From: a virus
IMG/VR virus record: IMGVR_UViG_3300048815_000006
Span: 1 to 39,469 of that record
Length of the DNA: 39,469 nt
Reading direction: 5' to 3' (one strand)
Below, one piece after another: positions 2,373-24,523 of this stretch. The position numbers were made by a program, and so were the translations under genes. Position 1 is the stretch's first letter. Each line of letters starts with the position of its first letter. The notes under the pieces were generated by a model, which saw nothing but the letters and a program-made list of their open reading frames with translations, was not told where the DNA came from and ran no database searches.

Positions 2373-5300
2373 TGGCTGACCCCGCTACTCTCGACGCGCC
2401 ACCGACCGGACGCTTGCCGGCGAGCGGAGACCCGTTTGCCGGGATCGACCCCTTCATGGCTGCGGCACCGGCTGCCGCGACCGCGCCTGACCCTGACGAT
2501 CCGTTCGCGGACGCGCCGCCGCTGGCGAAGGGCGAGACCGGCGCCCCTGGTGCCTTCATCTCCCACGCGGCCCGAGGCGTGCTGCCGATGGTCGGCGGGA
2601 TGGCTGCGGCTGGTGCTGGCGCTGAGATCGGCGCCGGAATTGGCGCTCTCACCGGACCATTTGCGCCCGTAGCGGCACCAGTCGGTGGCTTCATCGGTGG
2701 GTTGGCGGGGTTCTTTGCCGGCTCCGCCGCGACTGAGACCGCCCAGGATTGGGCGCTGAAGCAACTCCCGATGGCTGCCCAGGAGGCGGCCGGGCAATCC
2801 GAGCGCGCCCAGCGCGAGCAGGAGATCGAGCACCCCTACGCCTCGTTCATGGGCGGGATCGCCCCATACGCGATCACGATGTCGCCCGGCGGCTGGACCA
2901 AGGGCGCCGCATCGCTGCCTGAGAACGCGACGACGTTCCAGAAGATCATGGCGAACCCGTTGACGGCGAAAGCCTTCAGCGGCGCGATGATGGGCGGCAT
3001 GGAACTCGGCAACGAGTGGACCGAGGGCCAGCCGACCGATTGGGCCAAAGTCGGGATATCGACCGGGTTTGGGTTGATCTTTAGCCACCCCTACCAGCAC
3101 GGCGAGTACCTGACGAATCTTGGCGCCCAGCCTGTCGTCCGGCTGTTCTCGCGAGGCATGGAGGTTCCGCCGGCGGGAGTACTGAACCCCGAGGAGCCAA
3201 CCGTCGCCCAGGCTGGCGATGTCGGCGTGATCGGCCCCGGCATCACCGAACACACCTTTCGTGGCGGCGAGCAGCAGAGCGATGCGACCCGAGCCTCGGC
3301 ACAGAACGCCGCGGCGGATGAGCAAGCCGCGCTGGGACCGCTGCCGACGCCGGACCTGGACGCGATCGCGCGTCGGCTCGACCCCGACACATTCGCGCAG
3401 AACGATGAACTGCTGGCGCAACGGGACGCGCTGCGATCCTGGATCCAGACCGAAAGCAACCCGACCGACGACATGATCGCGCAGGCGACCGCGGCTCGGC
3501 AGGCGATCGACGATCAGTTGGCGGAGACGAAGAACCGGGCTGAACAGCGCCGGCTTCGTGTGCAGCAGCGCGCCGCGCAGGCGGACCTGGATGACCTGAC
3601 CAACCGCAGAGAAGCGTGGGAGAACGGCACGCACGTCGATACGCCGGACATCTCAATGGCCCGGCAGCATCTGTTGGATACCGAGCACGCGCTGTGGGAC
3701 TTGGCGCCGGACATCTCGGCGGCGCGGAGGCGGGCGGCGGATCATGTGGGGGAGGAGCCTGAACCGGCCGCGCAAGAGGTTGCGGCCGGTCACGAGCAGC
3801 CGGCGGCCGAGGTTCCGGAAAAAGGGAGGGTTATTTCGGAACCCGCCGCGCCGGCTGAGAAATCCCCCGACGCGCAACGCGCCTTCATCGCCCAGGACCG
3901 CGCGACGCAACTCATGGCCGCCGGCCTGTCCAAGGCCACGGCAGAGGCGTCCGCAGCCGTTGAGGCTCACTACTACGCGACCCTGGCGGCGCGGTTCAAC
4001 GGCGCCCTGGGGACGGCGGAAGACCTGTATCGAGCGCGAGCCGCGCGTGTCATCGGCCCGGGGCAGACCGCACCGGCCGAAGGTGCGCCGCCGGCGCCGA
4101 TTACCCGCACGGAACCCCTGCGTTCGGCTGCGATCCGGTCCATCGCGGACATCCAGGCGCAGGATGGTGTCGGCGCCAAGCGGGCCAAGGCGATCCAGGA
4201 GCAGGAGATACTGGCACGCGGGCGGGTGATTGAGCCGGGCACCCCGAGGGGCGAGCCGGTTGTGCCGGCCGTCCCTCAAGTTCCATCAAATCCATCAACC
4301 TCCATCAATCCCGCGCCAGTCGAGCGCGCCCCAGAACTCGCCGAAGCCGCGCAAGTCGCCCCGCCAGTGCCTGAACCCCGCCCGCGCCTCCGCAGCGCCG
4401 CCGACATCATGCGCGAGGACCGCGTTCCCGAGAGCCGCGTCAAGGCGGTCCAGGACGCTGAATTGGCGGCCTTGGCCGACTGGCAGGCCCGACACCCATC
4501 CGGGGAGCCTCGCCCGAAGCGCAACCGCGCCGCTGATCGGTTGGCCGAGACCGCCGGCATTCCGACCGCCGGGGTGCCCGAGCCTGCCGTCCTGACCGAG
4601 ATTGTGGACCGGTTGCCGGAAGAACGGGTTGTCGAGGAAGTCAACGCTGCTGCGGAAGCCGGCGAAATCGAGTATCGGGAGGCGGAGGCTGAGGCGCCCG
4701 AAGCGACCGAAACCCCCGACGCCTTCTACGACGCCGACCAGTCCCGCAGCCTGGAGGAATTGGAGAGTGAGCATCGACCGGCAGCGCAATCAGTTGCCAG
4801 CACCCCAGAGCCGGCGTCTCTTGCGGCGCTGATCCCAGAACCAGAGCGCAGGGAGAGTGCCGCAAAAGGGGAGGCGTTGGCAAAAGAAGGGGAGGCATTC
4901 CTCGCACGCGCAGCGGCAGTCGAACGCGAGAAGAACTATCGGGTCGGCGGTCTGACGCGAGAAATCCAGCATGACGCAAACCTACTTCGCGATCTGGCGG
5001 CGGAGCATGCTGCCGGCGATGACCGGCTACTCGAAAAAACACTAGACCGACTGTCACCGCTGCGCGTCGGGAAAACGGCGTACCAAGAAATCGGTATGCC
5101 CGAGGTGCGAGATTGGGAGAACAAGGCATACGAGTGGGCCTATGGCCTGGAAGAGAGGATCGAACGTGCTCGACCGGCGAACGAAGCTGCTGCACCTGAG
5201 CAACGCGAGGGCGGCGGCGGGGAACCAATCGTTGCCACAAGCGACGAGGGACAAGTACCAGAGGGCGGCGGACCAGTTGGGACTGTCGGTGGGACTGGAG

Positions 5301-8300
5301 AACGCGTTGCAGACGAAGGCGGAGAACGAGGCGATGTCGAGCACGCCGTCGCAGCCGCAGGGGTTGGGCCAGACTACCGGCCAGAGCCTGCTGCCGAGCA
5401 GCCCCCCGAGCCAGCCGGAGCAGAGCAAGGAACTGGCGTCCCCCAGCAACCTGCTGGCGTAAGGCGCACAGACGCCCGCGGCAACCCGATCTTCGCCAAG
5501 GGTGAGCGGGTTGTCATCCCGGATGGCGAGCATCTGGCCGGGCGGCATGGGACGGTCGAGGAAGCCAACGGGCTGGTGTTCCAGTCTCTGTATGGCGGCC
5601 AGAAGACGGAGCCGACCTACACTTATCAGGTCCGCACCGATGCCGGCGAACTGGTCCATTCCAATGCGCCGGTAGCCGAGACAGGCGAGCGCCCCGAGGT
5701 CGTGCCCGACCCGATCTACCAGGGTCACGCACGCAACCCGGCGGAACTGCTGCGGCACATCGGCCTGGATGAACGTGCAGCCACCGGATATGTGACGCGC
5801 GGCGCGCGGGCGCGTACCCCGAAGATGAAGGCCGAATGGGCACGCGAGGCAGCCAACTCACGGGACAAGGCTGCGGCGCAGCGGGCCGTGCTGGACGCAT
5901 GGGCGACGGAACATCCCGAGGAAGCCGCCAAGGTCCTGCCGGCGCGGGCCGCCGTTCCCGAAACCCCGAGCGCCGCATCGACTACTCCGGTCGGCGGCAT
6001 GTCCATCGTCGAGACCCGCCACACCAAGCACGGTTACCCGCTGTGGTCGGTGACGCTGAGCGGGGAACGGCTGCCGTTGGATCGATTCAACGAACTGCGG
6101 GGCGCGGCGCGCGAGGGCGGCGGCGACTGGTCATCGTGGCGCGGGCGCGGCGCTGTGCCGGGGTTCCAGTTTCGGACGCGCGAGGCGGCGGAGGCGTTTC
6201 GGGAACGGTTCGGTGGGGAGGGGCCGGCGGCAGAGGCCCCCGCACCGGCTACATCGGCGCGGCCTGAGTGGACCGAGGCCGGCCAGAACGACCGCGGCGA
6301 GACGATCTATACCAACGCGGAAGGCGCTCACTCCGTTATCGAGAACGGCGTCCGGGTCATTGAAGGCGTCGCGCTACGGCCGGTGCGCGATGAGCGGACC
6401 GGGCGGATTTCCTACGTGCCGCAGATCAAGGCGCCCGGGTCCAAGGAACTCCGGTATGAGGTGGTTCCCGAGGCGCCGACCGTTGCTGAGGTGACAGAGC
6501 AAGCCGGCGGAAGCGAATCGCTGCCTCCGCAGCCAGCACCGGCTCCGGAAACTCCGAAGGTCCGCACCATCTCCGACGCGCTCGCCCCCGCCGAGGGGAA
6601 GGGGCCGGCGCCGGTTACGAGTGCGCCAGAGGAAGCCCCTCGCGCATCCAAGGACGTGCAGATCGAGCACGCCGAGCAGATGCCGTTCGAGGACGCGCAC
6701 GACCTTGCAACCGCGCGCCGGATGCTCAACGCCTATCGTGGCGACAAAGGCGTCGAAGCGGCGGTTGCGCGCATTGAGGCGGGCGAGCCGTGGCAGGACG
6801 TGTTCCGCACCGCCAACACGCCGTTCACCGCGTTTGAGACACGCTCAATTGCCGAGGTGGCGCGCGCGGATGGCCGGATCAGGCCACGCGAGGAAGCGCC
6901 AACGCCAGCGCCCCCAGCAGAGGGTTCGGCATACGGCGCCAACAACAAACTCGTCACCCAAGCCGACCGCGAGGCGATCCGCGCCCGGCTCCGCGCAAAA
7001 TCTGGTCAACTCCGCACCGGCATTGACCCGGAAATGATGCTGGATGGCGCCCGTCTCGCCGTCTTCCACATCGAGGCTGGCGCGCGGGCCTTCGCCGACT
7101 ACGCCCGCGAGATAGTCGCCGACATCGGCGTCGAGTTCCGACCCTACCTGCGGTCCTGGTATGAGGCAGCCCGGCATTGGCCGGGCGTCGATGCTCGCGG
7201 CATGACCGCGGCGGGAGAGATTGAGGAAGCCCCCCATGTCGCCGAACGCACCCCGGAAACCCCCGAGGACGTGGCCGACATCGACCAACTGCTTGACACC
7301 CATCGCAACGACCCCATCATCAATGAGATCGCTCGCCTGACCGGGGCCGGCTGGACTCCCGAAGAGATCGAAAACGGTCCGGCTGGCGACCGCTTCTCGC
7401 TCGATGAGATCGAGAGCATCGTTCGTGCCCAGGAACGCCGGGGCGAGATCCCGGAACTCGATGAGGCGGAAGGCCAAGGCGACCTTTCGTTCGAGGAGGA
7501 TGAGGGTGGAGTTCAAGGGGCCGTACCTGTTCGCGATGAGGGAGCAGGACCCGAAGATGTTCATGGAGCTCCGTCGCTCGGGGAAACTGGACGCGCACCT
7601 TCAGGAGAAATCGGTGGAGGCGCACGAACTGCTGAACCAGCTGCTGGCGAAGAAGCCCAAGGACAGGTTCGGGGAGCACAGCCAGGCGGACGTGCGGGAG
7701 GCCGAGGAACTGGTGCGGGCGCAACTGATCGAGTTCCCAACACCGGAGAGGGATCAGCGGCCGGAGCCACCAGACGATTTGCCGACCGTCCGGATGCGGG
7801 CGTCGAAGGATCGAACTTCAGCATCGAGCCAGGCGACCTAGCCGAAGGCCGTGGCCGCACCACCAAGGCGCGGGACAACATCGCGGCCATCGAACTCGCG
7901 AAGCGGCTGATCGACGAAGGCCGGCCAGCCACCAAGGCTGAGCAAGCCATCCTTGTGAAATACACCGGCTGGGGCGGCATCAAGAACGCCTTCCCGGACG
8001 CGCGTGGCGAGTTCCGTCCAGAGATGGAGGACATCGGCCGCCGCCTTCGTGCAGCACTCACCGACGAAGAATACCGCACCGCGCAACAATCGGTGCAGTA
8101 CGCCCACTACACGGCCGAGCATGTCGTCCGCTCAATGTGGGATGCGGTGCGGCAGATGGGCTTTGACGGCGGCCTGGTGTTCGAGCCCGGCCTTGGGGTC
8201 GGGCATTTCCTTGGCCTGATGCCTGCCGATCTTGCCGAAAAGAGCGAATACCAGGGCATCGAGCGCGATCACCTGTCGGCGCAAATCGCGAAGCTACTGT

Positions 8301-11300
8301 ATCCCGAGTCCGGCATCCGCGAGGCCGACTACATCCGAACGCCGGTCCCGGAGGGATCGTTTGATCTGGTGATTGGCAATCCGCCGTTCGGCGACATTAT
8401 CATCAACGGTGATCCGAAGTACGCCGCCCGCGGCTTCATGCTGCACGATTATTTCTTTGCCAAATCGCTCGATAGCGTGCGGCCCGGCGGCCTCCTGGCC
8501 TTCATCACGTCGGCCGGCACGATGAACAAGCTGGACGCCTCGGCCCGGCTATATCTCGCCGACCGCGCCGATCTGGTTGGCGGCATCCGGCTACCGAACA
8601 CGACGTTCCGCCGCAACGCCGGGACTGAGGTGACGACCGACATCCTGTTTTTTCGCAAGCGCGCCCCGGGCGAGGAGGGGATTGAGCCGGCCTGGACCGA
8701 GACCGTCCAGCGCACATTGCCGAGCACAAAGGGCGGCGAGCAAGAAACGAATGTCAGCCGCTATTTCTCCGACCATCCCGAGAACGTGCTCGGCACCGAA
8801 GCGTGGGGCGAAATGCAGGCCGCTGGCCGCTACGAGGTCCAGCAGGTGCCCGGCACTGATCTTGAGGCTGATCTCCGCGCCGCTGTGGATCGCCTGCCGC
8901 GCGATGTGATGACCGCCGCCCCAACGCCGGAAGAACGTGCCCGGCTTGATTTTGCCTCCGGGCAGCGGAAGGACGGCAGCTTCTACGTCGGCGCCGATGG
9001 CAAGCTGATGCAGTACCGGGATGGCGCAGGCCGAGAAGTTCCGGCCTACGGCAAAGGTGGTGGCGGCCTGACCGGAGCGGCCCGCGAGCGCGTCGAGCAC
9101 CTGATCCCGATGCGGGACGCGCTGCGGGACGTGTTTGCCGCGGACCTGGCGCGAGATGATGCCGCCGGCGCAGAGGCGCGGGCGCGGCTCAACGAGCACT
9201 ACGATCGCTTCGTCCAGAAATTCGGCCCTATCAACAAGGCGGAGTTCACCTATCGGCGGCCATCGATCATCCAGCAGGAAACCGCCCGGCTGGAAGCGCG
9301 CGAGGAAGCGCGCATGTCGGACCAGCGGTTCGATGACGGCGAGTTCGATCCGAGTTCCATGCTCGCGAACAAGGCGAAGGTCAGCGAGATCGCCAGGGCG
9401 CGGCAACAGGCCCGCGAGGCAGCAAAGGCCGCAGGACGCGAGTTCGACGAAGGCACATTCGACCCGTCCGCAATGCCGGATGAGGTGTCGGAGAAACGTC
9501 CGAACATCAAGCCGTTCATGTCGGACCCAGAGAGTTACCGGCTGCGATCGATCGAGAATTACAACGATGCCACCGGGGAGGCATCCAAGAAGGCGATCTT
9601 CCGCGAAAACATCCTGAAGCACGAGGAAGAGCCGGAACTGAAATCGGCCAATGACGGCGTGCTCTGGTCGATGAACAAGCTGGGCCGGTTCGACGTTGAC
9701 GCCATCGCCAAGAAGATGAGGCGCGAGCCCGCCGATATCGTCGCTGAACTGGGCGATGCGGTCTACAAGGTGCCTGGCACCGAAGACACTTACCAGACCA
9801 AGGACGAGTATCTGTCGGGTGATATCGTGTCCAAGCTGGAGACGGCGCGGGCCGAAGCTGAAACAGACCCTGACGTGCGGCGCAACATTCCCGCCCTGGA
9901 GGCCGCGCTACCGCCTCCGCTGCCGCCCTCGGAAATCTCGATGGTCCTCGGGATGCCGTGGATACCGACCGACACCCTGCGCGAATTCGTCCGCGATCAC
10001 ATGGAGATGGGCGAGCCGCATATCAGCCACAGCGCCATCACTGGGACATGGTTCGTCAATGGCGGCCGCGCCGCACAGGAAGCCGGCGTCCAGCGATGGA
10101 GCACACCGGACCGCAACGCCTTCGAGTTGCTGTCTGACGCGATGAACCGAACGCCGCCCCGCATCTACGCCGAAGAGCGCGGCCCGCGGGGTGAGAAAAT
10201 CAGGGTGTTCGATCCCGTCGCCACACAGGCGGCGCAGGACGTGACCGACTCCATGAAGGCAGCGTTCACCGATTGGGTTGCCGCCGATCCAGACCGCGCA
10301 AACAGGCTGGCAGACCTCTACAACGATAAGCTGAACAGGACCGTGCTACGTCAGTTTGACGGCAGCTACATGACCACGCCTGGTGTTGCTGCGACATGGA
10401 GTTGGCGCCCACACCAGACGCGGGTGGTGTCCCGCATTGTTCAGACCGGCAACACCTATATGGCGCACGCTGTAGGGGCCGGAAAGACGAGCGCGATGAT
10501 CGGCGCAGGGATGGAGATGCGCCGCCTCGGACTGGTGCGGAAACCGCTCTACGTTGTGCCCAACCACATGCTCGGGCAATTCACCAAAGAGTTCTACGAG
10601 CAGTATCCAACCGCACGAATTGCTGTCGCCGACGAAGATCGGTTCCACACCGACCGCCGCAAGCAATTCGTGGCCAATGTTGCGCAGGACGATCTCGACG
10701 CGATCATCATGACGCATTCGAGTTTCGGCAAGATCGGGATCAGCGACGAGTTCCAGCGCCATTTGATCGATGAGCAGATCGAGATGCTGGACAAGGCGCT
10801 TGAAGAACTGGACGAGCAGGCTGATCGCATCGCTCGGGGCCGGATCGAAAACCAGAAGGAAAAACTTGAGCAGAGGCTGTCTGGCCGCAGCGACGGGCAG
10901 GATCAGACGCTCACGTTCGAGCAGCTTGGCGCCGACTTTTTGTTTGTCGATGAGGCCCACCAGTTCCGCAAATTAAGCTTCGGGACCAAGCAGGGGAACT
11001 TGAAGGGCATCGCGCCCGAAGGGTCCAATATGGCTTGGGACCTCTATACGAAGGTCCGCTATCTCGACAGCCAGAAGCCCGGACGCTCCGCTGTGTTCGC
11101 CTCTGGGACGCCGGTCACCAACACGATGGGCGAACTCTACAGCCTGAGTCGGTTCATGCAGCCCGAGGCCCTGGCCGAGCGCGGATTGACGCACTTCGAT
11201 TCGTGGGCGCAGACTTTCGGCGATACTAAGACAGGTCTGGAAGAAACCGCCGCCGGCACCTATCAGCCGGTCACGCGGTTCGGCCAGTTCGTCAACCTTC

Positions 11301-14300
11301 CTGAGTTGTACAAGATGGTCGGCGAGGTGATGGATATCGTCACCCCGAGCCAACTTGAGCAGTACGTGACGCGGCCAAAGTTGAAGGGCGGCGAGCGCGA
11401 CTTTCACCTCGCCCCGCGCACCGAAATCCTGGATCGCTACCAAGCCGACCTCGCGGCCCGGATGCAGGCCATCAAGGACCGACGCGGGCCGCCGCAGAAG
11501 GGTGACGACATCCTATTGTCGGTCATCAACGACGGGCGGCACGCAGCCATCGACCCACGTTTCGTTGAAGAAACTGACAACGATCCGCGGTCCAAGCTAA
11601 ATGTGATGGTGCAGAACGTCGCGCGCATCTACCACGAAACCGCCGACAAACAGTTCTACGATCCGGCCAGCAACTATGAGCGGGAGAGTTTCCAAGGTCC
11701 GGCGACGCAGATGGTTTTCGCCAATCTGGGCGTGAACGGTCGCGGCCCGATGGGCTTCTCGTCATACCAGTGGATCAAGGAAGCGTTACGCCGAGAGGGC
11801 GTGGCGCCCGAACACATTGCGTTCATCGGCGACTATCCCGGCACGCTTCAGCGCCAAGCCTTGTTCAACGACATGAACGAGGGGAAGGTCCGCATCCTGG
11901 TCGGCTCGACGCAGAAGATGGGCACCGGGGTCAACGCACAGCGGCGCCTCGTCGCGCTGCATAATCAGGACCCGCTCTGGTTCCCAGCCGACGATGAGCA
12001 GCGCGTCGGGCGCATCTTGCGCCAGGGCAACCACAATCCCGAGATCGAGGTCCACGACTACTCGACCAAGGGCACTTACGATTCCGCCATGTGGAAGATG
12101 ATGGGCAACAAGGCCCGGTTCATCGAGCAGTTCTTCCGGGGCGACCCGAGCCTGCGGAACATGGAGGATGTCGGCGAGGCCAGCATGTACGAGCAGGCGT
12201 CGGCGATGGCGACGACCGATGAGCGGATTATCACGCTCACGCAACTCAAACAGGATTTGGACAAGGCCCGGCGACGGGAGTCGGCACACAACAGCGGCCA
12301 GTATGCGCTGCGCTCGCAACTGAAAAACAAAGAGTGGTGGGCCGACTTCGAGGCCAGGTCCGCGGCGTCCATCCAGGAAGATATTGAGAAGCGCGAGGAC
12401 ACCCGAGGCGATAACTTCGCGATGCACGTCGGCGGCGAGAAATTCGACAAACGTAAAGAAGCGGAGGCCGCGCTTAGCGAATTGACCGCAGACCGCGCCG
12501 AGGGCCTAGGCAAAGGCGGTGAGACGCCAGTCGGTCGCATCGGCGGCTTCCCGATCATCATGTCACGGAACACCAAGGGCGCGCTGTCCTTCAACCTCCG
12601 CCTGTCCGGGGGCAACGCCCGTGAGTTAAATTTCAACTGGTACGGCAACAAGTCGGTGCATGACGCCTTTGTGGAGGCCCAGCGCAGGGAGAACGGAGAG
12701 GAGGCTGCTACGAAGGCGGCGGCTTCCCCAATGGGTGCCAAGGGCCTGATCCAATCCGCGGAGCACACACTGCGCCAGTTCGAGGACCGGCTCGCCGCCT
12801 CCGAAGCATCGCGCGCCAGGGCGCTTCGCGAGGCCGACAACATCCGGCCTCTGCTTGGTCAACCTTTCACCGGCGGCGACGAAATCCTGCGTCTATCCAA
12901 TGCCGTACGGGACCTGGAAGGCCAGTTACGGCGCGAGGCGGAGGCCAAGGCCAATCCCGATGCGCCCTCCCCTGAACCGACGCCGGGTATTCCAGCCGAA
13001 CCCACCTCCGCGCTGCCCCGCTGGGAAGGCCCGACACCGGAGGCTGTCTCCGGTTTCATGGCTGGTGGTGGAGATCTGTTCCAACGTCTCCGCCAGTCCA
13101 TCCAAGGCAAAATCCGCATATCCCCCGGCGAAACACGCTCCATCATCACCCTGGCCCGCAGCGCCGACGCCAGCACCTTCATGCACGAGACCGCGCACGA
13201 CTGGCTGAAGCAACTCCTGATGGACGCGGCGCACAATCTCGCCCCCCAGGCCCTCCGAGACGATGCCGCCACGGTGCGTCGCTGGCTGAAGCGTCCCGAC
13301 GCATGGACAGGATTTAAGCGCGATGGTACACCCGATGTAGCGCCCCAAGAGCGTTTCGCCCGTGCGTTCGAGCAATATCTACGCGAGGGTCATGCTCCAA
13401 GCCGGGCGCTGGATGGTGTCTTTGCGAAGTTCAAGTCGTGGCTGACCACGATCTACCGGACGTTGCGCGGACTTGGCGCTCCAATCTCGGACGACATCCG
13501 CGGTGTGTTCGACCGGATGCTGGCGATCGAGCCGGAGCGGATCACCCACGGCGAGGTGCCGGAACGCGGGCCGAGCATCGCGGACATCCACGAGGCCGAC
13601 GCAGCGGAGACGCCGCCGCGCGAGGCCGAGGTAGTCGCGGATCGGATCGCCGCCGAACGTGCCAGGAACCAGCCCCCGCCAGAGGTCGCGCATGAAATCG
13701 CCGCAGTCCAGCCAATCGAGCCAGCCGGCGCCACTCAACCCGGAGCAGAAGCTGCAACTGGCCCAACAGGACGCGGAGAAGTGGCGCCAGGCGGCGGCCA
13801 GCCCGAATCTGTCACCGATGGCAGCGGCGTGGGCGCTGGGACAGGCGCGGTCGGCGCAGGCGGAGGTGAAACTGCGGCAGAAGGGACTGGCGTATCAGGC
13901 GGAACAGGACAATCCAGTGACGCAGGGGGACGACGCGGCACTGAACGTGCTGCTGGGTCTCCCGCTGAACAACTCGCCCCAAGGCCAGCCGAATCCCTCG
14001 ACGACACCGGCGATACAACCGCCGTCGACCTCGCCGGGAATATCCGCGTCGAAAACCTCACCGACGTAGAGAGCATCGCCCAGGCGATTCACGATTCGGC
14101 GGATCGCAACGACGAGTTCCGTCAGGTCCGGGGCGGAATGACCAAGGGCCAGATGCTCGATCTGGCCGAGGCAATGGGGTTAGACCCCAACAAGATCGAC
14201 GAGGCCGGGCTTGCCAGACTGCTCGGCGGCACATCCGAACTTGGGCCGCGCATTTTGGCTGCACGTCGGCTCGTGGTGCAATCGGCCGAGATCGTGTCCA

Positions 14301-16537
14301 ACATCATGAAGCGGGCCGCGCAATCCTGGACCGATGCTGACGGCGCCGAACTCGGGTTGGCGATTGCCCGGCATGACATGATCCAATCGGCGCTTGCTGG
14401 CGTCACTGCCGAATGGGGTCGGGCCGGTAACGCGTTCCACAATCTGCTGGAGGGATGGGGGAAGGCGCAGGACCTGAACCAGTTGCTGCGCGACAATACG
14501 GGGCGCGATCTCTATCAGCTCCAGGTGATCGCCAAGATGGGGTCGCGACTGGACACCCCCGGCAAGGTCTCGAAATACCTCCGGGACGCGAAGAGTCGGT
14601 CCTTTGGCGGCATGATCCTCGAGTACTGGATCAACGGGCTGATCTCAGGCATCGCGACGCATGCCACCTACGTGGTCGGCAACACCATCCTGGCGGCGGA
14701 GAAGGCCGGTCCCGAGACTGCGGTCGCGGCGGCGATCGGCGCCTTCCGGGCCCGGATGGGACGGGTCGGAACCCGGGTCAGGCTCGGGGAGGTGGGCGCG
14801 CAGTTCGGCGCGGCCTTCCGTGAGGCCCCTGCGGCGGTTCAGGCCGGCATCGAGGCGTTGCGCAGCGGCGCCACCACCCAGCTTCCAGGCGAGGCCGCAA
14901 GGCCACTGGTGCCGTTCCAGGGCGATACCTCCCTCACTACAAGCCGGGGCATGACGAACCAGCATGTCACGTGGCGGGAGGTGGGTGCAGACGCCTACGG
15001 GTTGGTGCAGGGGATGCGTGACGGCATCGTGGCGGCCGGCGAATTGGTGCGGGCCGGTGGAGTAGAGGGCGCTCCGACGTGGGGCTGGCAGTCGTCACCG
15101 CTCGGGCAGATACCGGGCTTGGCCTACAAGGGTGTGGAAGTCGCACCCATCGGGCACATCCTGCGCTTGCCGAGTCGGAACGTGGCCGCGATCCATTCGA
15201 CGTTCCGCGCCATGAACTATTCGATGGAGATCAACGCGCTCGCCTTCCGTCAGGCGGCCGATGAAGGATTGGCCGGGGAAGCCTTTGCGGCCAGGGTTTC
15301 CGAACTCCGCCAGAACCCACCCGAGGAAATGATGGACGCGGCGCGGGGTAAAGCAACCGACCTGACCCTGATGGGTCAGGGCGGCAAGCTGACCGAGGCC
15401 CTGAGCCGACTGTTCAACACCACGATCAACCTGCCGGTCCTCGGCGAAACCGCGGTCCTGAAATTCGTCGACCCTTTCGTCCACATCGCCGGCAACATCA
15501 TGAACCAGTCGCTGCTACAGCGGACCCCGGTCGGGCTGCTGTCGCGCGAGATCAGGGCGGACCTGGCCGGCAAGAACGGCAACGTCGCCCAGGATACCGC
15601 GGCGGCGAAGATGCTGGTCGGAACCGCGATTGCGGTCACGTTCGGCGGTCTCGCTGCTCAGGGCTTGGCATCCGGCTCCGGTCCCGCCGATCCAAACAAA
15701 GCCGCGATGTGGCGTCTTGCAGGAAACCAACCGCATAGCGTTCGCATCGGGGATATGTGGTACGCGGTGAACCGGCTCGGCCCGATGGGGCTGCTGCTCA
15801 GTGTCGCGGCCGACATGTACGATGTCGCGCACATGATGGGCACCGAAGACGCCGGGACGATTGGGTCCGCGTTGATGCACGCCTTCACGCAGAACATCCT
15901 GGATGAATCCTTCATGCGCGGGCCGTCAGACTTGATCCGCGCCACCACGGAGTCGGATCGGTACGGGGCGGCCTACATCCGCAACCTGCTGCCGTCGTTC
16001 CTACCGTTCTCCGTCCTGCAAGCCCAGATGGCGCGGGCCACGGACCCTTATTCCAGGCAGGCCCGCACCATCATGGACGCGATCCGGGCGCGGGTGCCAG
16101 GGTTGTCCGAGAGCCTGTTTCCACGCCGGGATATCTGGGGGGAGCCGATGCCGAGTGGCGATGCCCTGATAGCCCCTGGCGTGACGGCCATCTATGCGCG
16201 GCAGATGAGCACTGACCCGGTGAACCTCGCCATGCTGGCGCTCGGCGTGTCGCCGGCCCCGGTCGAGCGGACGATCCGCAACGTGAAGCTGACCGATCAG
16301 GAATATGACGACTACGCAAGGCTCGCCGGCCGGGCTGCGAAGATCAGGCTGGATGCCATTGTGAAATCCCCGCTTTGGGCAACGATGCCGAACGCGAGTC
16401 GCTATGAGGTGATCGAGGAGACGATCAAACAGAACCGTGAGGCGGCTCGTGGCATGATGATGATGAAGTACCCGCAGATTCCGCGCGATGCGGCCAAGGC
16501 GCAGATTGCCCGCAAGACGGGCGAAACGGTGCACTGA
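2372..16537 (+). CDS. Giant polyvalent protein: methyltransferase, SF2 helicase, metallopeptidase, ejection-like ends
   Basis: A single uninterrupted 4721-codon frame. Residues 60-140 are a Gly/Ala-rich hydrophobic segment likely to meet membrane. About 320-460 is charged and helical. About 1210-1290 and 1518-1612 are modules (HTK..., GANNK...IEAGAR) that recur in DarB-like giants. Residues 1817-2090 are an adenine-N6 methyltransferase (SAM loop FEPGLGVGH near 1937, NPPF at 2003-2006). About 2670-3260 is an SF2 helicase (Walker A GAGKT 2702-2706, DEAH 2860-2863, QRVGR from 3210). About 3590-3720 is a metallopeptidase with HETAH at 3605-3609. The C-terminus (3900-4721) has hydrophobic stretches near 4080-4110, 4413-4434 and 4468-4490. 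P1 DarB, a packaged methyltransferase-helicase that protects incoming DNA, is the closest functional model. Virion packaging and ejection are inferred. Three linkers (about 932-1031, 1712-1823, 3774-3900) are low-complexity and overprinted by small genes. Confidence 0.9.
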   Translation: MADPATLDAPPTGRLPASGDPFAGIDPFMAAAPAAATAPDPDDPFADAPPLAKGETGAPGAFISHAARGVLPMVGGMAAAGAGAEIGAGIGALTGPFAPVAAPVGGFIGGLAGFFAGSAATETAQDWALKQLPMAAQEAAGQSERAQREQEIEHPYASFMGGIAPYAITMSPGGWTKGAASLPENATTFQKIMANPLTAKAFSGAMMGGMELGNEWTEGQPTDWAKVGISTGFGLIFSHPYQHGEYLTNLGAQPVVRLFSRGMEVPPAGVLNPEEPTVAQAGDVGVIGPGITEHTFRGGEQQSDATRASAQNAAADEQAALGPLPTPDLDAIARRLDPDTFAQNDELLAQRDALRSWIQTESNPTDDMIAQATAARQAIDDQLAETKNRAEQRRLRVQQRAAQADLDDLTNRREAWENGTHVDTPDISMARQHLLDTEHALWDLAPDISAARRRAADHVGEEPEPAAQEVAAGHEQPAAEVPEKGRVISEPAAPAEKSPDAQRAFIAQDRATQLMAAGLSKATAEASAAVEAHYYATLAARFNGALGTAEDLYRARAARVIGPGQTAPAEGAPPAPITRTEPLRSAAIRSIADIQAQDGVGAKRAKAIQEQEILARGRVIEPGTPRGEPVVPAVPQVPSNPSTSINPAPVERAPELAEAAQVAPPVPEPRPRLRSAADIMREDRVPESRVKAVQDAELAALADWQARHPSGEPRPKRNRAADRLAETAGIPTAGVPEPAVLTEIVDRLPEERVVEEVNAAAEAGEIEYREAEAEAPEATETPDAFYDADQSRSLEELESEHRPAAQSVASTPEPASLAALIPEPERRESAAKGEALAKEGEAFLARAAAVEREKNYRVGGLTREIQHDANLLRDLAAEHAAGDDRLLEKTLDRLSPLRVGKTAYQEIGMPEVRDWENKAYEWAYGLEERIERARPANEAAAPEQREGGGGEPIVATSDEGQVPEGGGPVGTVGGTGERVADEGGERGDVEHAVAAAGVGPDYRPEPAAEQPPEPAGAEQGTGVPQQPAGVRRTDARGNPIFAKGERVVIPDGEHLAGRHGTVEEANGLVFQSLYGGQKTEPTYTYQVRTDAGELVHSNAPVAETGERPEVVPDPIYQGHARNPAELLRHIGLDERAATGYVTRGARARTPKMKAEWAREAANSRDKAAAQRAVLDAWATEHPEEAAKVLPARAAVPETPSAASTTPVGGMSIVETRHTKHGYPLWSVTLSGERLPLDRFNELRGAAREGGGDWSSWRGRGAVPGFQFRTREAAEAFRERFGGEGPAAEAPAPATSARPEWTEAGQNDRGETIYTNAEGAHSVIENGVRVIEGVALRPVRDERTGRISYVPQIKAPGSKELRYEVVPEAPTVAEVTEQAGGSESLPPQPAPAPETPKVRTISDALAPAEGKGPAPVTSAPEEAPRASKDVQIEHAEQMPFEDAHDLATARRMLNAYRGDKGVEAAVARIEAGEPWQDVFRTANTPFTAFETRSIAEVARADGRIRPREEAPTPAPPAEGSAYGANNKLVTQADREAIRARLRAKSGQLRTGIDPEMMLDGARLAVFHIEAGARAFADYAREIVADIGVEFRPYLRSWYEAARHWPGVDARGMTAAGEIEEAPHVAERTPETPEDVADIDQLLDTHRNDPIINEIARLTGAGWTPEEIENGPAGDRFSLDEIESIVRAQERRGEIPELDEAEGQGDLSFEEDEGGVQGAVPVRDEGAGPEDVHGAPSLGETGRAPSGEIGGGARTAEPAAGEEAQGQVRGAQPGGRAGGRGTGAGATDRVPNTGEGSAAGATRRFADRPDAGVEGSNFSIEPGDLAEGRGRTTKARDNIAAIELAKRLIDEGRPATKAEQAILVKYTGWGGIKNAFPDARGEFRPEMEDIGRRLRAALTDEEYRTAQQSVQYAHYTAEHVVRSMWDAVRQMGFDGGLVFEPGLGVGHFLGLMPADLAEKSEYQGIERDHLSAQIAKLLYPESGIREADYIRTPVPEGSFDLVIGNPPFGDIIINGDPKYAARGFMLHDYFFAKSLDSVRPGGLLAFITSAGTMNKLDASARLYLADRADLVGGIRLPNTTFRRNAGTEVTTDILFFRKRAPGEEGIEPAWTETVQRTLPSTKGGEQETNVSRYFSDHPENVLGTEAWGEMQAAGRYEVQQVPGTDLEADLRAAVDRLPRDVMTAAPTPEERARLDFASGQRKDGSFYVGADGKLMQYRDGAGREVPAYGKGGGGLTGAARERVEHLIPMRDALRDVFAADLARDDAAGAEARARLNEHYDRFVQKFGPINKAEFTYRRPSIIQQETARLEAREEARMSDQRFDDGEFDPSSMLANKAKVSEIARARQQAREAAKAAGREFDEGTFDPSAMPDEVSEKRPNIKPFMSDPESYRLRSIENYNDATGEASKKAIFRENILKHEEEPELKSANDGVLWSMNKLGRFDVDAIAKKMRREPADIVAELGDAVYKVPGTEDTYQTKDEYLSGDIVSKLETARAEAETDPDVRRNIPALEAALPPPLPPSEISMVLGMPWIPTDTLREFVRDHMEMGEPHISHSAITGTWFVNGGRAAQEAGVQRWSTPDRNAFELLSDAMNRTPPRIYAEERGPRGEKIRVFDPVATQAAQDVTDSMKAAFTDWVAADPDRANRLADLYNDKLNRTVLRQFDGSYMTTPGVAATWSWRPHQTRVVSRIVQTGNTYMAHAVGAGKTSAMIGAGMEMRRLGLVRKPLYVVPNHMLGQFTKEFYEQYPTARIAVADEDRFHTDRRKQFVANVAQDDLDAIIMTHSSFGKIGISDEFQRHLIDEQIEMLDKALEELDEQADRIARGRIENQKEKLEQRLSGRSDGQDQTLTFEQLGADFLFVDEAHQFRKLSFGTKQGNLKGIAPEGSNMAWDLYTKVRYLDSQKPGRSAVFASGTPVTNTMGELYSLSRFMQPEALAERGLTHFDSWAQTFGDTKTGLEETAAGTYQPVTRFGQFVNLPELYKMVGEVMDIVTPSQLEQYVTRPKLKGGERDFHLAPRTEILDRYQADLAARMQAIKDRRGPPQKGDDILLSVINDGRHAAIDPRFVEETDNDPRSKLNVMVQNVARIYHETADKQFYDPASNYERESFQGPATQMVFANLGVNGRGPMGFSSYQWIKEALRREGVAPEHIAFIGDYPGTLQRQALFNDMNEGKVRILVGSTQKMGTGVNAQRRLVALHNQDPLWFPADDEQRVGRILRQGNHNPEIEVHDYSTKGTYDSAMWKMMGNKARFIEQFFRGDPSLRNMEDVGEASMYEQASAMATTDERIITLTQLKQDLDKARRRESAHNSGQYALRSQLKNKEWWADFEARSAASIQEDIEKREDTRGDNFAMHVGGEKFDKRKEAEAALSELTADRAEGLGKGGETPVGRIGGFPIIMSRNTKGALSFNLRLSGGNARELNFNWYGNKSVHDAFVEAQRRENGEEAATKAAASPMGAKGLIQSAEHTLRQFEDRLAASEASRARALREADNIRPLLGQPFTGGDEILRLSNAVRDLEGQLRREAEAKANPDAPSPEPTPGIPAEPTSALPRWEGPTPEAVSGFMAGGGDLFQRLRQSIQGKIRISPGETRSIITLARSADASTFMHETAHDWLKQLLMDAAHNLAPQALRDDAATVRRWLKRPDAWTGFKRDGTPDVAPQERFARAFEQYLREGHAPSRALDGVFAKFKSWLTTIYRTLRGLGAPISDDIRGVFDRMLAIEPERITHGEVPERGPSIADIHEADAAETPPREAEVVADRIAAERARNQPPPEVAHEIAAVQPIEPAGATQPGAEAATGPTGRGEVAPGGGQPESVTDGSGVGAGTGAVGAGGGETAAEGTGVSGGTGQSSDAGGRRGTERAAGSPAEQLAPRPAESLDDTGDTTAVDLAGNIRVENLTDVESIAQAIHDSADRNDEFRQVRGGMTKGQMLDLAEAMGLDPNKIDEAGLARLLGGTSELGPRILAARRLVVQSAEIVSNIMKRAAQSWTDADGAELGLAIARHDMIQSALAGVTAEWGRAGNAFHNLLEGWGKAQDLNQLLRDNTGRDLYQLQVIAKMGSRLDTPGKVSKYLRDAKSRSFGGMILEYWINGLISGIATHATYVVGNTILAAEKAGPETAVAAAIGAFRARMGRVGTRVRLGEVGAQFGAAFREAPAAVQAGIEALRSGATTQLPGEAARPLVPFQGDTSLTTSRGMTNQHVTWREVGADAYGLVQGMRDGIVAAGELVRAGGVEGAPTWGWQSSPLGQIPGLAYKGVEVAPIGHILRLPSRNVAAIHSTFRAMNYSMEINALAFRQAADEGLAGEAFAARVSELRQNPPEEMMDAARGKATDLTLMGQGGKLTEALSRLFNTTINLPVLGETAVLKFVDPFVHIAGNIMNQSLLQRTPVGLLSREIRADLAGKNGNVAQDTAAAKMLVGTAIAVTFGGLAAQGLASGSGPADPNKAAMWRLAGNQPHSVRIGDMWYAVNRLGPMGLLLSVAADMYDVAHMMGTEDAGTIGSALMHAFTQNILDESFMRGPSDLIRATTESDRYGAAYIRNLLPSFLPFSVLQAQMARATDPYSRQARTIMDAIRARVPGLSESLFPRRDIWGEPMPSGDALIAPGVTAIYARQMSTDPVNLAMLALGVSPAPVERTIRNVKLTDQEYDDYARLAGRAAKIRLDAIVKSPLWATMPNASRYEVIEETIKQNREAARGMMMMKYPQIPRDAAKAQIARKTGETVH
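5166..5462 (+). CDS. Overprinted small gene A inside the giant gene (+1 frame), 98 aa
   Basis: Start GTG at 5166 is preceded by GAGAGG with a 7-base spacer; an ATG at 5142 in the same frame lacks such a site. A hand count gives G or C at about 90 of 98 third positions in this frame. The overlapping giant frame here reads as Gly/Ala/Glu/Pro-rich filler. The product begins with a helical segment (about residues 2-50, LDRRTKLLHLSNARAAAGN...) and ends in a Gln/Ser/Pro-rich tail. The TAA stop at 5460-5462 lies where the giant frame again becomes ordinary domain sequence. No family is recognised. The reading frame is well supported by codon bias and ribosome site; expression is untested. Confidence 0.7.
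   Translation: MLDRRTKLLHLSNARAAAGNQSLPQATRDKYQRAADQLGLSVGLENALQTKAENEAMSSTPSQPQGLGQTTGQSLLPSSPPSQPEQSKELASPSNLLA
7506..7841 (+). CDS. Overprinted small gene B inside the giant gene (+1 frame), 111 aa
   Basis: GTG at 7506 follows AGGAGG (7494-7499) with a 6-base spacer, an excellent ribosome site; an in-frame ATG at 7500 touches the site and is less likely. About 84% of third positions are G/C by hand count, against about 36% in the giant frame over the same bases. The product is a normal-looking helical protein: EFKGPYLFAMREQDP, then LRRSGKLDAHLQEKSVEAHE, then REAEELVRAQLIEF and an acidic Pro-rich tail. The segment with SGKL...L followed by an EAEE-type helix loosely recalls small TnpV-like proteins, but this is only an impression. 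TAG at 7839-7841 lies exactly where the methyltransferase domain begins in the giant frame. Confidence 0.8.
   Translation: MEFKGPYLFAMREQDPKMFMELRRSGKLDAHLQEKSVEAHELLNQLLAKKPKDRFGEHSQADVREAEELVRAQLIEFPTPERDQRPEPPDDLPTVRMRASKDRTSASSQAT
13692..14069 (+). CDS. Overprinted small gene C inside the giant gene (+1 frame), 125 aa
   Basis: ATG at 13692 has AGAGG 6 bases upstream. A GTG at 13659 is in frame but has no clear ribosome site. About 79% of third positions are G/C by hand count. The encoded protein has a Ser/Gln-rich start, a helical centre (NPEQKLQLAQQDAEKWRQ, then MAAAWALGQARSAQAEVKLR) and a Pro/Ser/Thr-rich tail. The giant frame over the same bases is a Gly/Ala/Thr repeat-like linker. 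The TAG stop at 14067-14069 immediately precedes the start of the C-terminal ejection-like part of the giant protein. Its layout (short helical region plus disordered Pro/Ser/Gln tail) resembles overprinted gene A. Function unknown. Confidence 0.72.
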   Translation: MKSPQSSQSSQPAPLNPEQKLQLAQQDAEKWRQAAASPNLSPMAAAWALGQARSAQAEVKLRQKGLAYQAEQDNPVTQGDDAALNVLLGLPLNNSPQGQPNPSTTPAIQPPSTSPGISASKTSPT

Positions 16538-17847: not shown

Positions 17848-18594
17848 ATGCCTTATCAAATGACCCCTGTTCAACTGACGGAGTCCGGAGGTCACGCAAC
17901 TCTAGAGAACACAAGTGTGTCGTTCGGAAGCTCGTTCAGGTATGGGGGGACAAGTTTTTGGGTGAATCTGGAGACTCTGAACAGTAACAGTGTTGGTGTA
18001 TTCTGCGAGGACACCGCATCCAACGAGATATCCTTCACCTTCGAGTCCACAAGTGGCGGCGTCTTCACGATCCAGCTATACATCACATCCTCTGGTGGTG
18101 TTCTAAGTCAGACGTACGACTTGTCAGGGATATCAATAGACACCTGGTACAATTTCGTATGGGCGTGGGACACAGTCGGACAGACATCGAATGTCTGGAT
18201 GAATGGGTCGATTTTGACTCCGGCATCCTCCACGTGGACTAAGACGGCGACGCTCCCGTCGGGAGGCTGGATTGTGGAGTTTGGTTCCACGCAGAATATT
18301 TGCGCAGGGGATGTCTGGCTTGAGACTGGAACGGATCTGTCGTCAGCTCCAGCCGCGTTCTACTCGGGCGGATACCCAGTCAGTCTGGGAACAAATGGAT
18401 CCGTTCCAACCGGAGTGGAACCCCAGGTCTTTCTGACCGTGCCGTATGGCGATGCGGCCAGCACCTTTCTTAGCAACAGCGGGAGCGGTGGAAGTTTTAT
18501 ACAGTCGGCAGGAACCATAGCTCTCTGCTCCAGCGGACCGTATCCGCCTTCAACGCCTTCTGGACCATACTTCATGAACGCGGGGATGTTCTGA
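17848..18594 (+). CDS. Lectin-like (LamG/concanavalin A-type) tail-associated protein
   Basis: 248 residues beginning MPYQMTPVQL, three bases after the preceding stop. Alternating beta-strand sequence with many Trp, Phe, Ser and Gly, and the pattern DTWYNFVWAWDTVGQTSNVW followed by MNGS, matches the laminin-G/concanavalin A-like jelly-roll used by phage adhesins to bind glycans. Base composition falls to about 45-57% GC over its first 180 bases and codons use more A/T thirds than the neighbours, suggesting more recent acquisition. Probably a receptor-binding or decoration protein. The fold assignment is moderate and the ligand unknown. Confidence 0.65.
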   Translation: MPYQMTPVQLTESGGHATLENTSVSFGSSFRYGGTSFWVNLETLNSNSVGVFCEDTASNEISFTFESTSGGVFTIQLYITSSGGVLSQTYDLSGISIDTWYNFVWAWDTVGQTSNVWMNGSILTPASSTWTKTATLPSGGWIVEFGSTQNICAGDVWLETGTDLSSAPAAFYSGGYPVSLGTNGSVPTGVEPQVFLTVPYGDAASTFLSNSGSGGSFIQSAGTIALCSSGPYPPSTPSGPYFMNAGMF

Positions 18595-18598
18595 TGCC

Positions 18599-18760
18599 CT
18601 ACATCGCCGCCTTCAACTGGTCCCCCAGCGCGCTGAACGCCGCTTGCAGGTCGGTGCTGAAGATGCCGATGGCGATAGTAACCGCGGCGATGATACCCAC
18701 GGCGAGGATGCCGTATTCGATCGAAGCGACGCCACGGCGGTCACGAAGCAGAGCAAACAT
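18599..18760 (-). CDS. Flp/Tad-type prepilin (type IVb pilin), 53 aa
   Basis: On the strand opposite to the tail genes, an ATG at 18760 encodes 53 residues: a charged leader (MFALLRDRRG), then VASIEYGILAV, a long hydrophobic helix and an amphipathic tail. The leader ends in Gly10 and is followed by Glu at +5 and Tyr at +6, the exact Flp prepilin-peptidase (TadV/CpaA) site. Length and layout match Flp major pilins of the tight-adherence secretion system. AAAGG lies upstream of the ATG. It is the second gene of a two-gene minus-strand unit with its own promoter, so it is a moron. No tad assembly genes are nearby, so it would depend on the host machinery, either as a functional pilin or as an interfering decoy. 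Confidence 0.85.
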   Translation of the reverse strand: MFALLRDRRGVASIEYGILAVGIIAAVTIAIGIFSTDLQAAFSALGDQLKAAM

Positions 18761-18772
18761 GAAACAACCCTT

Positions 18773-18943
18773 TCAGTTGGATATGCGGGCCGACACAGCC
18801 AGCATGACGAACGCATAGGCGGCAAACTCGCTCCGCGCCGGCTCCGCCCAGGGGAACCAGAGCAGGAACGTCGCAACGCAGCGCAGGAACCGCGCGACCA
18901 GCGACAGAACGTAACGTGCGACAGTGTGCAGAATTTTGGACAC
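18773..18943 (-). CDS. Small hydrophobic protein upstream of the Flp pilin, 56 aa
   Basis: GTG at 18943 encodes MSKILHTVARYVLSLVARF followed by more hydrophobic sequence with Trp-Pro-Trp, an acidic turn and a second hydrophobic stretch. One or two membrane-inserting helices with Arg residues on one face are likely. Third positions are mostly G/C, as expected for a real gene here. There is no Shine-Dalgarno, but the predicted transcription start of the promoter at 18950-18979 falls at the GTG, so the message may be leaderless. The stop lies 12 bases before the Flp prepilin ATG, and the pilin ribosome site sits in that gap, so the two are cotranscribed. No family recognised; a role with the pilin is only suggested by linkage. 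Confidence 0.55.
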   Translation of the reverse strand: MSKILHTVARYVLSLVARFLRCVATFLLWFPWAEPARSEFAAYAFVMLAVSARISN

Positions 18944-18949
18944 GCCGGG

Positions 18950-18979
18950 ATGCTATCGGGGGTTGCGAGGATGTGTCAA
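18950..18979 (-). promoter_or_regulatory. Sigma70-type promoter of the pilin moron
   Basis: On the minus strand a perfect -35 TTGACA (18979-18974) is followed after 18 bases by TAGCAT (18955-18950), which matches four of six -10 positions. The expected start, seven bases on, is the first base of the GTG at 18943, which fits a leaderless transcript. It faces away from the plus-strand gene at 19064. Confidence 0.6.
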
Positions 18980-19031
18980 GGATTTCCGAACGTTTCCATG
19001 CAGCGCTTGCTACCTGCTGTCCAGTGATCTG

Positions 19032-19063: not shown

Positions 19064-20449
19064 ATGCTCAGACGGCTCGTTCTCGCCGGCGCGCTGGCGT
19101 TCCTGACACTCGCGTCCGCGCATGCCCAGGTCGGCGGTCCCTTGTGCGGAGGTGGCGGTACGTCGCCGGACTGCAAGATCCAGGGCGGCTCCGGCTCCCC
19201 GGTCACCGTCACCGGCACAGGAACGGCGGGCACGCCAGCAGCTGGCATCATCACGGTGCAGGGCAACCCGTCCGGCACCCCGGTCCCCGTCAGTGGCACG
19301 TTTTCCGCCACGATTGGTGGGTTCGACCCGACTGCGGTTGGCACGCCGATCACCGCAACGACCGGAGGCGCTACCGGAACCCTTCCGAGCGGTGCGGTCG
19401 TGGTCGCAACCAACGTCGGGAGCACCAACGGCGCATTCTGCGCGCTCGGAGCGTCATCCTCGACATCCTGGCAATACATCGCGCCAGGCGGCGGGTGGTT
19501 CGCATTCACGGTCGGCGCCGCCACGCAACTGACGTGCCTCACATCGGCGAGCACGACCACCATCAACATGGTCGGCGGTGCTGGTCTGGCGACTGGTGTC
19601 AGCGGTGGGGGAGGGTCGTTTTCGGGAGCGGTCACGCTCAATTCATCGCCCTCCTTGGCAAACGGAAACGGCGTCGTGCCCACCCAGGGCGGCACGGTAC
19701 TGAGCGCGACGAATGGGATGTATGTCAACCTGCTGCAAGGAAACGCGGTCCTTTCGTCCGGCAACCCGATCTTTGCTTCGATCACCAACATCCCGGCGGT
19801 CACGCAGTCCGGTGGGCCGTGGACGTTCAATCAGACGCAGCTTGATAGCGTAAATCTTGGGGCGCCCTCGAACTATGGCACGTCGCCCGGCGCTGTGGAG
19901 GTTGCTGGCGTCAATGCGTTTGTGACGAATACCCCGACCGTGACGGCCGGACTCTCTGCTACCCTCACAACGCCCACAGGCACGCTGACACGACCTTCCA
20001 ACACGACGGCCTACGCCGGCACATCGACCACCCCACAGCTTATCGGCAGCAGCACGACGGCGGGTTCGGTGGTTGTGCCGAGCTTCGCTATCGCCACGTC
20101 AGGCGGCGCGGCGGCAATCCCGCTTGTCACTTTGGCCACCAACAAGACGAGCGGGTGGGGTTCGGTATCAATCATTGCCACGCTCTGGACCGCGGCGCCA
20201 ACCTATACGAACGGAGATGGCGGAACGTATGCGGTGGCGACCGGAGCGGCTGGACAGCGGGCGCAGTACAGTTGCACGCTGATCCAAGACGGCGACGGGG
20301 CGGTTTGTCAGGCCGCACCGCTCAATGGGACTGCTCCGATTGTCGCGCCGTCCAGCGGAACAACGATCTACTGGGACTTGCAGATACAGTCCTCGGCAAC
20401 GCCAGCTTCCGGGCAAACCTTCACGTTGACGCCGCAGGTTTGGAACTGA
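19064..20449 (+). CDS. Tail/spike-like protein with N-terminal signal sequence
   Basis: The ATG at 19064 has GGAG 8 bases upstream. The frame opens upstream at 19031, but this start gives a clean N-terminus. The first 22 residues (MLRRLVLAGALAFLTLASAHAQ) are a classical Sec signal peptide with an AHA-Q cleavage site. The remaining 440 residues are low in charge and rich in Gly, Thr, Ser, Val and Ala, with beta-repeat character. The C-terminal 130 residues look like a jelly-roll tip (SGWGSVSIIATLW, ending FTLTPQVWN). Context and composition suggest a tail-fibre or surface-attachment protein. A Sec signal is odd for a virion part; export to the periplasm or outer surface of the infected cell is an alternative. 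Confidence 0.65.
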   Translation: MLRRLVLAGALAFLTLASAHAQVGGPLCGGGGTSPDCKIQGGSGSPVTVTGTGTAGTPAAGIITVQGNPSGTPVPVSGTFSATIGGFDPTAVGTPITATTGGATGTLPSGAVVVATNVGSTNGAFCALGASSSTSWQYIAPGGGWFAFTVGAATQLTCLTSASTTTINMVGGAGLATGVSGGGGSFSGAVTLNSSPSLANGNGVVPTQGGTVLSATNGMYVNLLQGNAVLSSGNPIFASITNIPAVTQSGGPWTFNQTQLDSVNLGAPSNYGTSPGAVEVAGVNAFVTNTPTVTAGLSATLTTPTGTLTRPSNTTAYAGTSTTPQLIGSSTTAGSVVVPSFAIATSGGAAAIPLVTLATNKTSGWGSVSIIATLWTAAPTYTNGDGGTYAVATGAAGQRAQYSCTLIQDGDGAVCQAAPLNGTAPIVAPSSGTTIYWDLQIQSSATPASGQTFTLTPQVWN

Positions 20450-20458
20450 TCTGTGCTG

Positions 20459-24271: not shown

Positions 24272-24512
24272 TGCCGCCCATGCTGCAATGTCGGATAGTC
24301 AGTTGCAAACCGACATTTCCGACCCCCACACCCCCGCCATAATCGCAGCCCACCGCGACGCAGCCGAGATGCTGTCCGGCCTCCCCGAACCGGCGCGGGC
24401 GGTGTGCGCTGCTGTGGCTCGGCGGTTTGCGGAGAGGGCGGCGGAGTTGGAGCAGAGTGAGGGATTCGAACCCATCGACCCTTCGCTTGGAAGGCGAACG
24501 CTCTACCGCTGA
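24264..24512 (+). CDS. Hypothetical protein whose 3' end is antisense to a tRNA gene
   Basis: ATG 24264 (or 24288) overlaps the previous gene. Up to about residue 64 the product is a normal small helical protein (IIAAHRDAAEMLSGLPEPAR, VARRFAERAAELEQ). The last 20 or so residues are simply the translation of the complementary strand of tRNA-Gly, and the TGA stop lies in the tRNA D-arm region. This suggests that the tRNA was inserted or recruited at the gene's 3' end, replacing the original tail and stop. Function unknown. Confidence 0.5.
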   Translation: MGNAAHAAMSDSQLQTDISDPHTPAIIAAHRDAAEMLSGLPEPARAVCAAVARRFAERAAELEQSEGFEPIDPSLGRRTLYR

Positions 24513-24523
24513 GCTAACCCTGC
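24448..24523 (-). tRNA. tRNA-Gly (UCC), CCA encoded, one extra base in the T stem
   Basis: Read on the minus strand, the acceptor arms GCAGGGT and ACTCTGC pair over 7 bp (one G-U). The D arm is GCTC AGCGGTA GAGC. The anticodon arm is TTCGC CTTCCAA GCGAA with anticodon TCC. The T arm carries TTCGAAT and the discriminator T is followed by encoded CCA. With a standard 5-base variable loop, the 5' T-stem strand is GATGGG against CCCTC, so one U is bulged. The fold is otherwise complete. It lies downstream of two minus-strand genes and is probably cotranscribed with them. The bulge raises doubt about aminoacylation or elongation competence. Confidence 0.85.

Follow-up and report, generated by a model that had tools for sequence, protein, structure and literature searches.

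Why would a phage carry a gene for a pilus subunit and none for the machine that builds the pilus? The question is raised by a small gene at positions 18599-18760 (-) of the window, by which we mean the whole 39,469-bp stretch analysed, a linear virus fragment covering all of its record. Surface sensing and attachment are driven by Tad pili, which several alphaproteobacterial phages also use as receptors; such pilin genes could therefore influence biofilm formation as well as competition among phages. The reading that we favor, at a probability of about 0.45, is that the gene provides a phage pilin matured and assembled by the host, mostly for phage exclusion.

The locus encodes a complete prepilin of 53 residues, as the preliminary description had it (Table 1). 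The sequence, MFALLRDRRG followed by VASIEYGILAVGIIAAVTIAIGIFSTDLQAAFSALGDQLKAAM, matches the Flp_Fap family PF04964 (E 4.6e-8; 33.2 bits versus a curated cut-off of 32.2; Pfam), the sole match to this family in the record. It has no match in NCBIfam or PHROGs, which marks it as a divergent PF04964 member. The cleavage motif described earlier is likewise present, with Gly10 at -1, Glu15 at +5, and Tyr16 at +6, and the invariant columns in an alignment with Caulobacter crescentus PilA and phage pilins are G10, I14, E15, Y16, and G17. AlphaFold2 predicts a single helix spanning residues 2-52 (mean pLDDT 89.2) and no globular domain. A Foldseek search of the PDB with this model gave no match, a result that is uninformative for one helix, and the nearest solved chain by sequence is C. 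crescentus PilA (8u1k), a weak match at E 0.1. GC content by codon position follows a gene-like pattern for the minus strand (0.61/0.44/0.80), which the same bases do not show on the plus strand (0.45/0.56/0.77). We regard 18599-18760 as almost certainly a genuine phage-borne pilin gene.

Table 1. Features of the window, of related records, and of viral records with a phage gene beside a lone pilin.
Record	Feature	Position	Strand	Basis or remark
Window	Flp/Tad prepilin gene	18599..18760	-	53 aa, ATG start, TAG stop 18599-18601; PF04964
Window	Prepilin leader, 10 residues, ends Gly(-1)	18731..18760	-	Sequence; alignment with C. crescentus PilA and phage pilins
Window	Mature pilin, 43 residues, V1-A-S-I-E5-Y6-G...	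18602..18730	-	One predicted helix (AlphaFold2)
Window	Shine-Dalgarno-like GAAAGGG	18768..18774	-	Sequence; 7 nt 5' of ATG
Window	Predicted sigma-70-like promoter TTGACA-18-TAGCAT, directed at pilin	18950..18979	-	10/12 matches
Window	56-codon GTG ORF between promoter and pilin, candidate leader ORF	18773..18943	-	TGA inside the pilin's Shine-Dalgarno site
Window	Left neighbor, probable tail or surface-binding gene	17848..18594	+	Convergent with pilin, 4-bp gap; no family match
Window	Right neighbor, Sec-type signal peptide protein	19064..20449	+	Divergent from pilin; 30-aa match, 87%, in relative L003
Window	4,721-aa DarB-like methylase/helicase and internal virion protein	2372..16537	+	phrog_10089, phrog_6651; Burkholderia phages CSP3, DC1, BcepIL02
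Window	Signal-peptide ORFs	19064-20449, 20453-21502	+	Home-made rule
Window	tRNA-Gly (TCC)	24448-24523	-	
L003	Signal-peptide ORFs	13477, 14451, 16535, 20412		Home-made rule
L004	Signal-peptide ORFs	13485, 14261		Home-made rule
L005	Signal-peptide ORFs	14120, 16466		Home-made rule
L007	Signal-peptide ORF	13556		Home-made rule
L010	Signal-peptide ORF	13465		Home-made rule
L053	Small terminase and portal			Same strand
L054	GpA-type large terminase			
L058, L059, L060, L069	Terminase_3 or PHROG large terminases			
L067, L068	Other large terminases			
L061	Another large terminase			

Neither the Tad ATPase (T2SSE/CpaF, PF00437) nor the prepilin peptidase (PF01478) is found in the linear fragment, in agreement with the claim that no assembly genes lie nearby. 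A solitary pilin gene without tad genes is unusual, yet it is compatible with membership of the Flp/Tad family. The placement between tail genes holds roughly: the left neighbor, convergent with the pilin, has no family match, and the divergent gene on the right begins at 19064. No terminator was found between the pilin and its convergent neighbor. The gene had also been credited with a promoter of its own. The promoter scan returns a single site, read from 18979 to 18950, where 0.3 sites are expected by chance in that stretch; as the pilin's promoter, this site is plausible, short of proof.

The 56-codon ORF between this site and the pilin has no family match in Pfam, NCBIfam, or PHROGs. Its third-position GC is gene-like, its GTG coincides with the predicted transcript start and is possibly leaderless, and it might encode a regulatory leader peptide for the pilin. 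Three further ORFs that overlap the pilin, 18594-18818 (+), 18644-19027 (+), and 18613-18876 (-), have no family matches either; 18594-18818 was considered as the real gene at these bases and is ruled out by its wrong codon-position GC together with this lack of a match.

The record is recognized as that of a phage by its giant DarB-like methylase/helicase and internal virion protein; neither a terminase nor a portal was identified in the fragment. Similar giant proteins (~41-46% identity over ~40% of the query) occur in the Bcep22-like podophages BcepIL02, DC1, BcepMigl, JC1, and CSP3, which differ from the window phage in that no Flp pilin was found in these isolates. Further relatives are 12 IMG/VR records that have the internal-virion region in common (26-61% identity), and in their retrieved stretches PF04964 and phmmer detect a Flp pilin in none. 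In L003, the closest of them, the giant gene is directly followed by a gene homologous to the one at 19064 in the window (30 aa, 87%), and both the pilin and the two tail-like genes found between these positions in the window are missing. The pilin is therefore accessory and sits in a variable region, and its absence from all 12 relatives, along with its opposite strand and predicted promoter, identifies it as a moron.

The preliminary description would have given up the gene had absence from all near relatives coincided with traces of misassembly; the absence is complete among the 12 relatives, whereas no trace of misassembly is seen. Bacterial DNA wrongly joined into a phage contig would fit a pilin known from a single record, but this explanation is highly improbable. 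The pilin is flanked by phage genes to its left and right, so a chimera would take two false joins, one falling exactly between stop codons 4 bp apart; GC takes no abrupt step around the pilin; and similar pilin genes are found in other viral records.

These records were collected by scanning IMG/VR with a back-translated Flp motif, G-[VA]-[TA]-[SA]-I-E-Y-G, which yields 37 records; PF04964 matches 36 of them, 33 above the cut-off; because the pilins were picked by this motif, its sharing among them is not independent evidence. Neither PF00437 nor PF01478 is present in any of the 25 pilin-bearing records tested, whereas control genomes were positive. We read the surroundings of the pilin (~10 kb) in 20 records. 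A terminase and/or portal lies within 5 kb of the pilin in nine, from about five phage groups (L053, L054, L058, L059, L060, L061, L067, L068, and L069), a count that takes in only records with phage genes beside the pilin, as the remainder may include bacterial prophage flanks. The pilin is upstream of the large terminase in all eight records with a TerL gene, at a distance of 0.7-3.4 kb, and on the opposite strand in seven of the eight. Two large phage-type records have pilins too, L055 (183 kb, with PhoH) and L065 (147 kb). The search of phage genomes for the same moron, proposed in the preliminary description, thus has a positive outcome: lone Flp pilins recur across many viral records, and several of them neighbor terminase genes.

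Some of these loci have further features. L068 carries tandem Flp pilin genes, at 4847-5092 and 5112-5300 (-), upstream of a Terminase_6C gene. A tRNA-Met lies within ~1 kb of the pilin in L058, L059, L060, L067, and L069, and downstream of the L058 pilin come a hairpin and a T-rich run, an arrangement that makes for a self-contained cassette.

Two further motif patterns gave 17 records, ~5 of them Flp-pilin-like, and none, respectively. Patterns for close relatives of the window pilin matched in viral and genome contigs with no stretch confirmed, and the degenerate pattern G[VA]A[S/T]IEYGILA is absent from the genome contigs. A tblastn search of the INPHARED isolate phages with four queries and E up to 10 detects no Flp pilin, and plasmids give a single weak match (38%); absences by tblastn are weak here because short hydrophobic proteins confirm poorly, with plasmid pilins of 60% identity scoring only E ~1.

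The pilins of L058, L059, and L069 diverge more than their flanking genes. Their TerL proteins are 97% identical (pS 0.27-0.34, pN 0.01-0.02) and their pilins ~76% identical (pS 0.51-0.55, pN 0.17-0.23), and DNA identity is 86-93% in the flanks versus 77-85% in the pilin stretch; the pilin figures come from ~60 codons and small numbers, and some of the divergence may predate capture. Since the excess is seen at both silent and replacement sites, it suggests allele replacement rather than mutation in place. At the same time, pN/pS values of 0.33-0.45 for these pilins (0.14-0.60 in the wider set) indicate that the viral pilin protein is under constraint, a measure taken on other viral pilins, as the window pilin is one sequence without a close homolog.

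These results bear on another possibility, that the window pilin is host DNA carried along by chance and of no function to the phage. Its absence from all 12 relatives and from the isolate phages (tblastn) would be accounted for in this way. However, the frame is intact and comes with a ribosome site and a predicted promoter, the 4-bp fit to the adjoining gene is unlike random debris, and the lone pilin recurs beside packaging genes in several unrelated phage groups, where it has been retained with pN/pS well below 1. We consider a functionless passenger quite improbable.

How, then, could a lone pilin serve a phage? In the reading that we favor, the phage would have captured, as its moron, a Tad/Flp pilin that is transcribed on its own and competent for assembly. 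Cleavage after Gly10 by the host prepilin peptidase would release the leader of 10 residues, and the CpaF-driven Tad machine of the host would assemble the 43-residue mature pilin, alone or mixed with host pilin. The phage subunit would alter the surface or dynamics of the pilus, turning infected or lysogenic cells into poor targets for pilus-dependent phages. Expression, processing, assembly, and exclusion are all steps that we infer, and the host Tad system is itself an assumption. Action through such a system is probable, and exclusion of pilus-dependent phages has a little less than an even chance of being the main benefit.

Assembly can be judged by comparison with the major Tad pilin of C. 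crescentus, PilA (8u1k/8u2b). The two proteins share Gly-1, Glu+5, Tyr+6, and one long amphipathic helix, with a mature length of 43 residues in the window pilin versus 45 in PilA; they differ in sequence (~31% identity) and in that the window pilin is phage-borne and lacks a tad locus. Within the Tad pilus core, Glu+5 and Tyr+6 make hydrogen bonds, and the corresponding Glu19 and Tyr20 of PilA are dispensable for expression and processing but required for assembly (PMC11067988). As both residues are kept and the mature length is normal, the window pilin should be assembly-competent. Intact assembly residues fit substitution better than poisoning, and the sequence suggests that the phage pilin mixes into or replaces host pilin, with poisoning as a weaker version of the idea.

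In that weaker version, a dominant-negative subunit would jam or titrate the Tad machine (peptidase, CpaF, or platform), depiliate the cell, and so exclude pilus phages, much as happens with type IVa pili under PfsE. A precedent exists in PfsE of Pseudomonas phage Pf4, like the window pilin a small phage membrane protein bearing on a type IV pilus, which achieves phage exclusion through pilus suppression (PMC8764522). PfsE, however, is no pilin subunit, its binding partner being the platform protein PilC, and a pure inhibitor would have no need of the Glu5, Tyr6, and mature helix length that are all kept here. We therefore regard a jamming pilin as unlikely.

How an assembled phage subunit could exclude other phages is illustrated by phage PhiCb5, which contacts exposed parts of four PilA subunits, much of this in the C-terminal half; a strain that differs from a PhiCb5-binding strain by four PilA substitutions, two at contact positions, shows binding no higher than that of a pilA knockout (PMC11067988). 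Because a Tad pilin is a bare helix and phages largely touch its outward C-terminal half, a changed subunit would mean a changed pilus surface or dynamics. When we map the polar PhiCb5 contacts of PilA onto the window pilin (our own mapping, offset 4), Thr33 becomes Ile, Asn43 becomes Gln, Lys48 becomes Ala, and Thr51 becomes Asp. With its contact residues differing from those of PilA, the phage subunit could spoil adsorption of a pilus phage while the pilus is kept.

The main rival to exclusion is changed adhesion, in which the phage pilin assembles and the benefit lies in altered attachment or biofilm formation of the lysogen. Both roles were put forward in the preliminary description, and both are plausible. 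Flp pili mediate adherence, and a gene opposed to the late genes and with its own predicted promoter would suit lysogenic conversion. Prophages phi345 and phiGANI1709 of Vibrio harveyi encode Flp family pilins that have been classed as adhesion factors (PMC12482185), and stable lysogeny is documented for JC1, which is related and likewise Bcep22-like (PMC9144972). On the other side, the window phage may be lytic, as its record, a fragment, has no integrase (one relative, G006, has one), and the two large records with pilins are possibly lytic as well, in which case a doomed cell would gain little. Adhesion as the chief benefit thus seems somewhat unlikely to us, although recurrence and allele replacement are equally compatible with adhesion and with exclusion.

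Exclusion through a substituted subunit could extend beyond the window. To our knowledge, the pilus interference described for phages so far relies on inhibitors that target the assembly machine. A phage-supplied pilus subunit would, if true, amount to receptor control by substitution, with the pilus staying useful to the cell. As many unrelated phages carry a lone pilin, phages may alter pili that they themselves and their competitors use. It is conceivable, though doubtful, that lone Tad pilins serve many unrelated phage groups as exchangeable receptor-replacement genes that exclude competitors, with infected cells making their pili out of the phage subunit and with alleles being swapped among near-identical phages to match or dodge the pilins of different hosts and the phages using them.

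Prophage-encoded Flp family pilins are also annotated in the phiLM21-like prophages of Sinorhizobium meliloti (PMC12429752); these and the V. harveyi pilins belong to other hosts and phages and are likened to the window pilin by annotation alone. We found no functional study of phage Flp pilins in the open-access literature. Prophage Flp pilins are thus already known as annotation; their recurrence, missing machinery, and fast divergence have apparently not been described, as far as we could find.

Two minor features of the surroundings deserve mention. An Rfam scan of the window returns nothing except tRNA (Table 1). In addition, ORFs just after the giant virion-protein gene carry predicted signal peptides in six of nine related phages, the window included; by our home-made rule these are Sec-type, one being Tat-like, in ORFs that are tail-like or without assignment. 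The structure predicted for the tail-like 20453 protein of the window has no confidence (pLDDT 32). In PHROGs, this protein matches solely the C-terminal part of the tail protein phrog_5939 (residues 557-761 of 801), and it also has a weak match to a head-spike fiber domain. A receptor-binding-like domain placed on a secretion signal rather than a virion anchor could act as an exported receptor mask.
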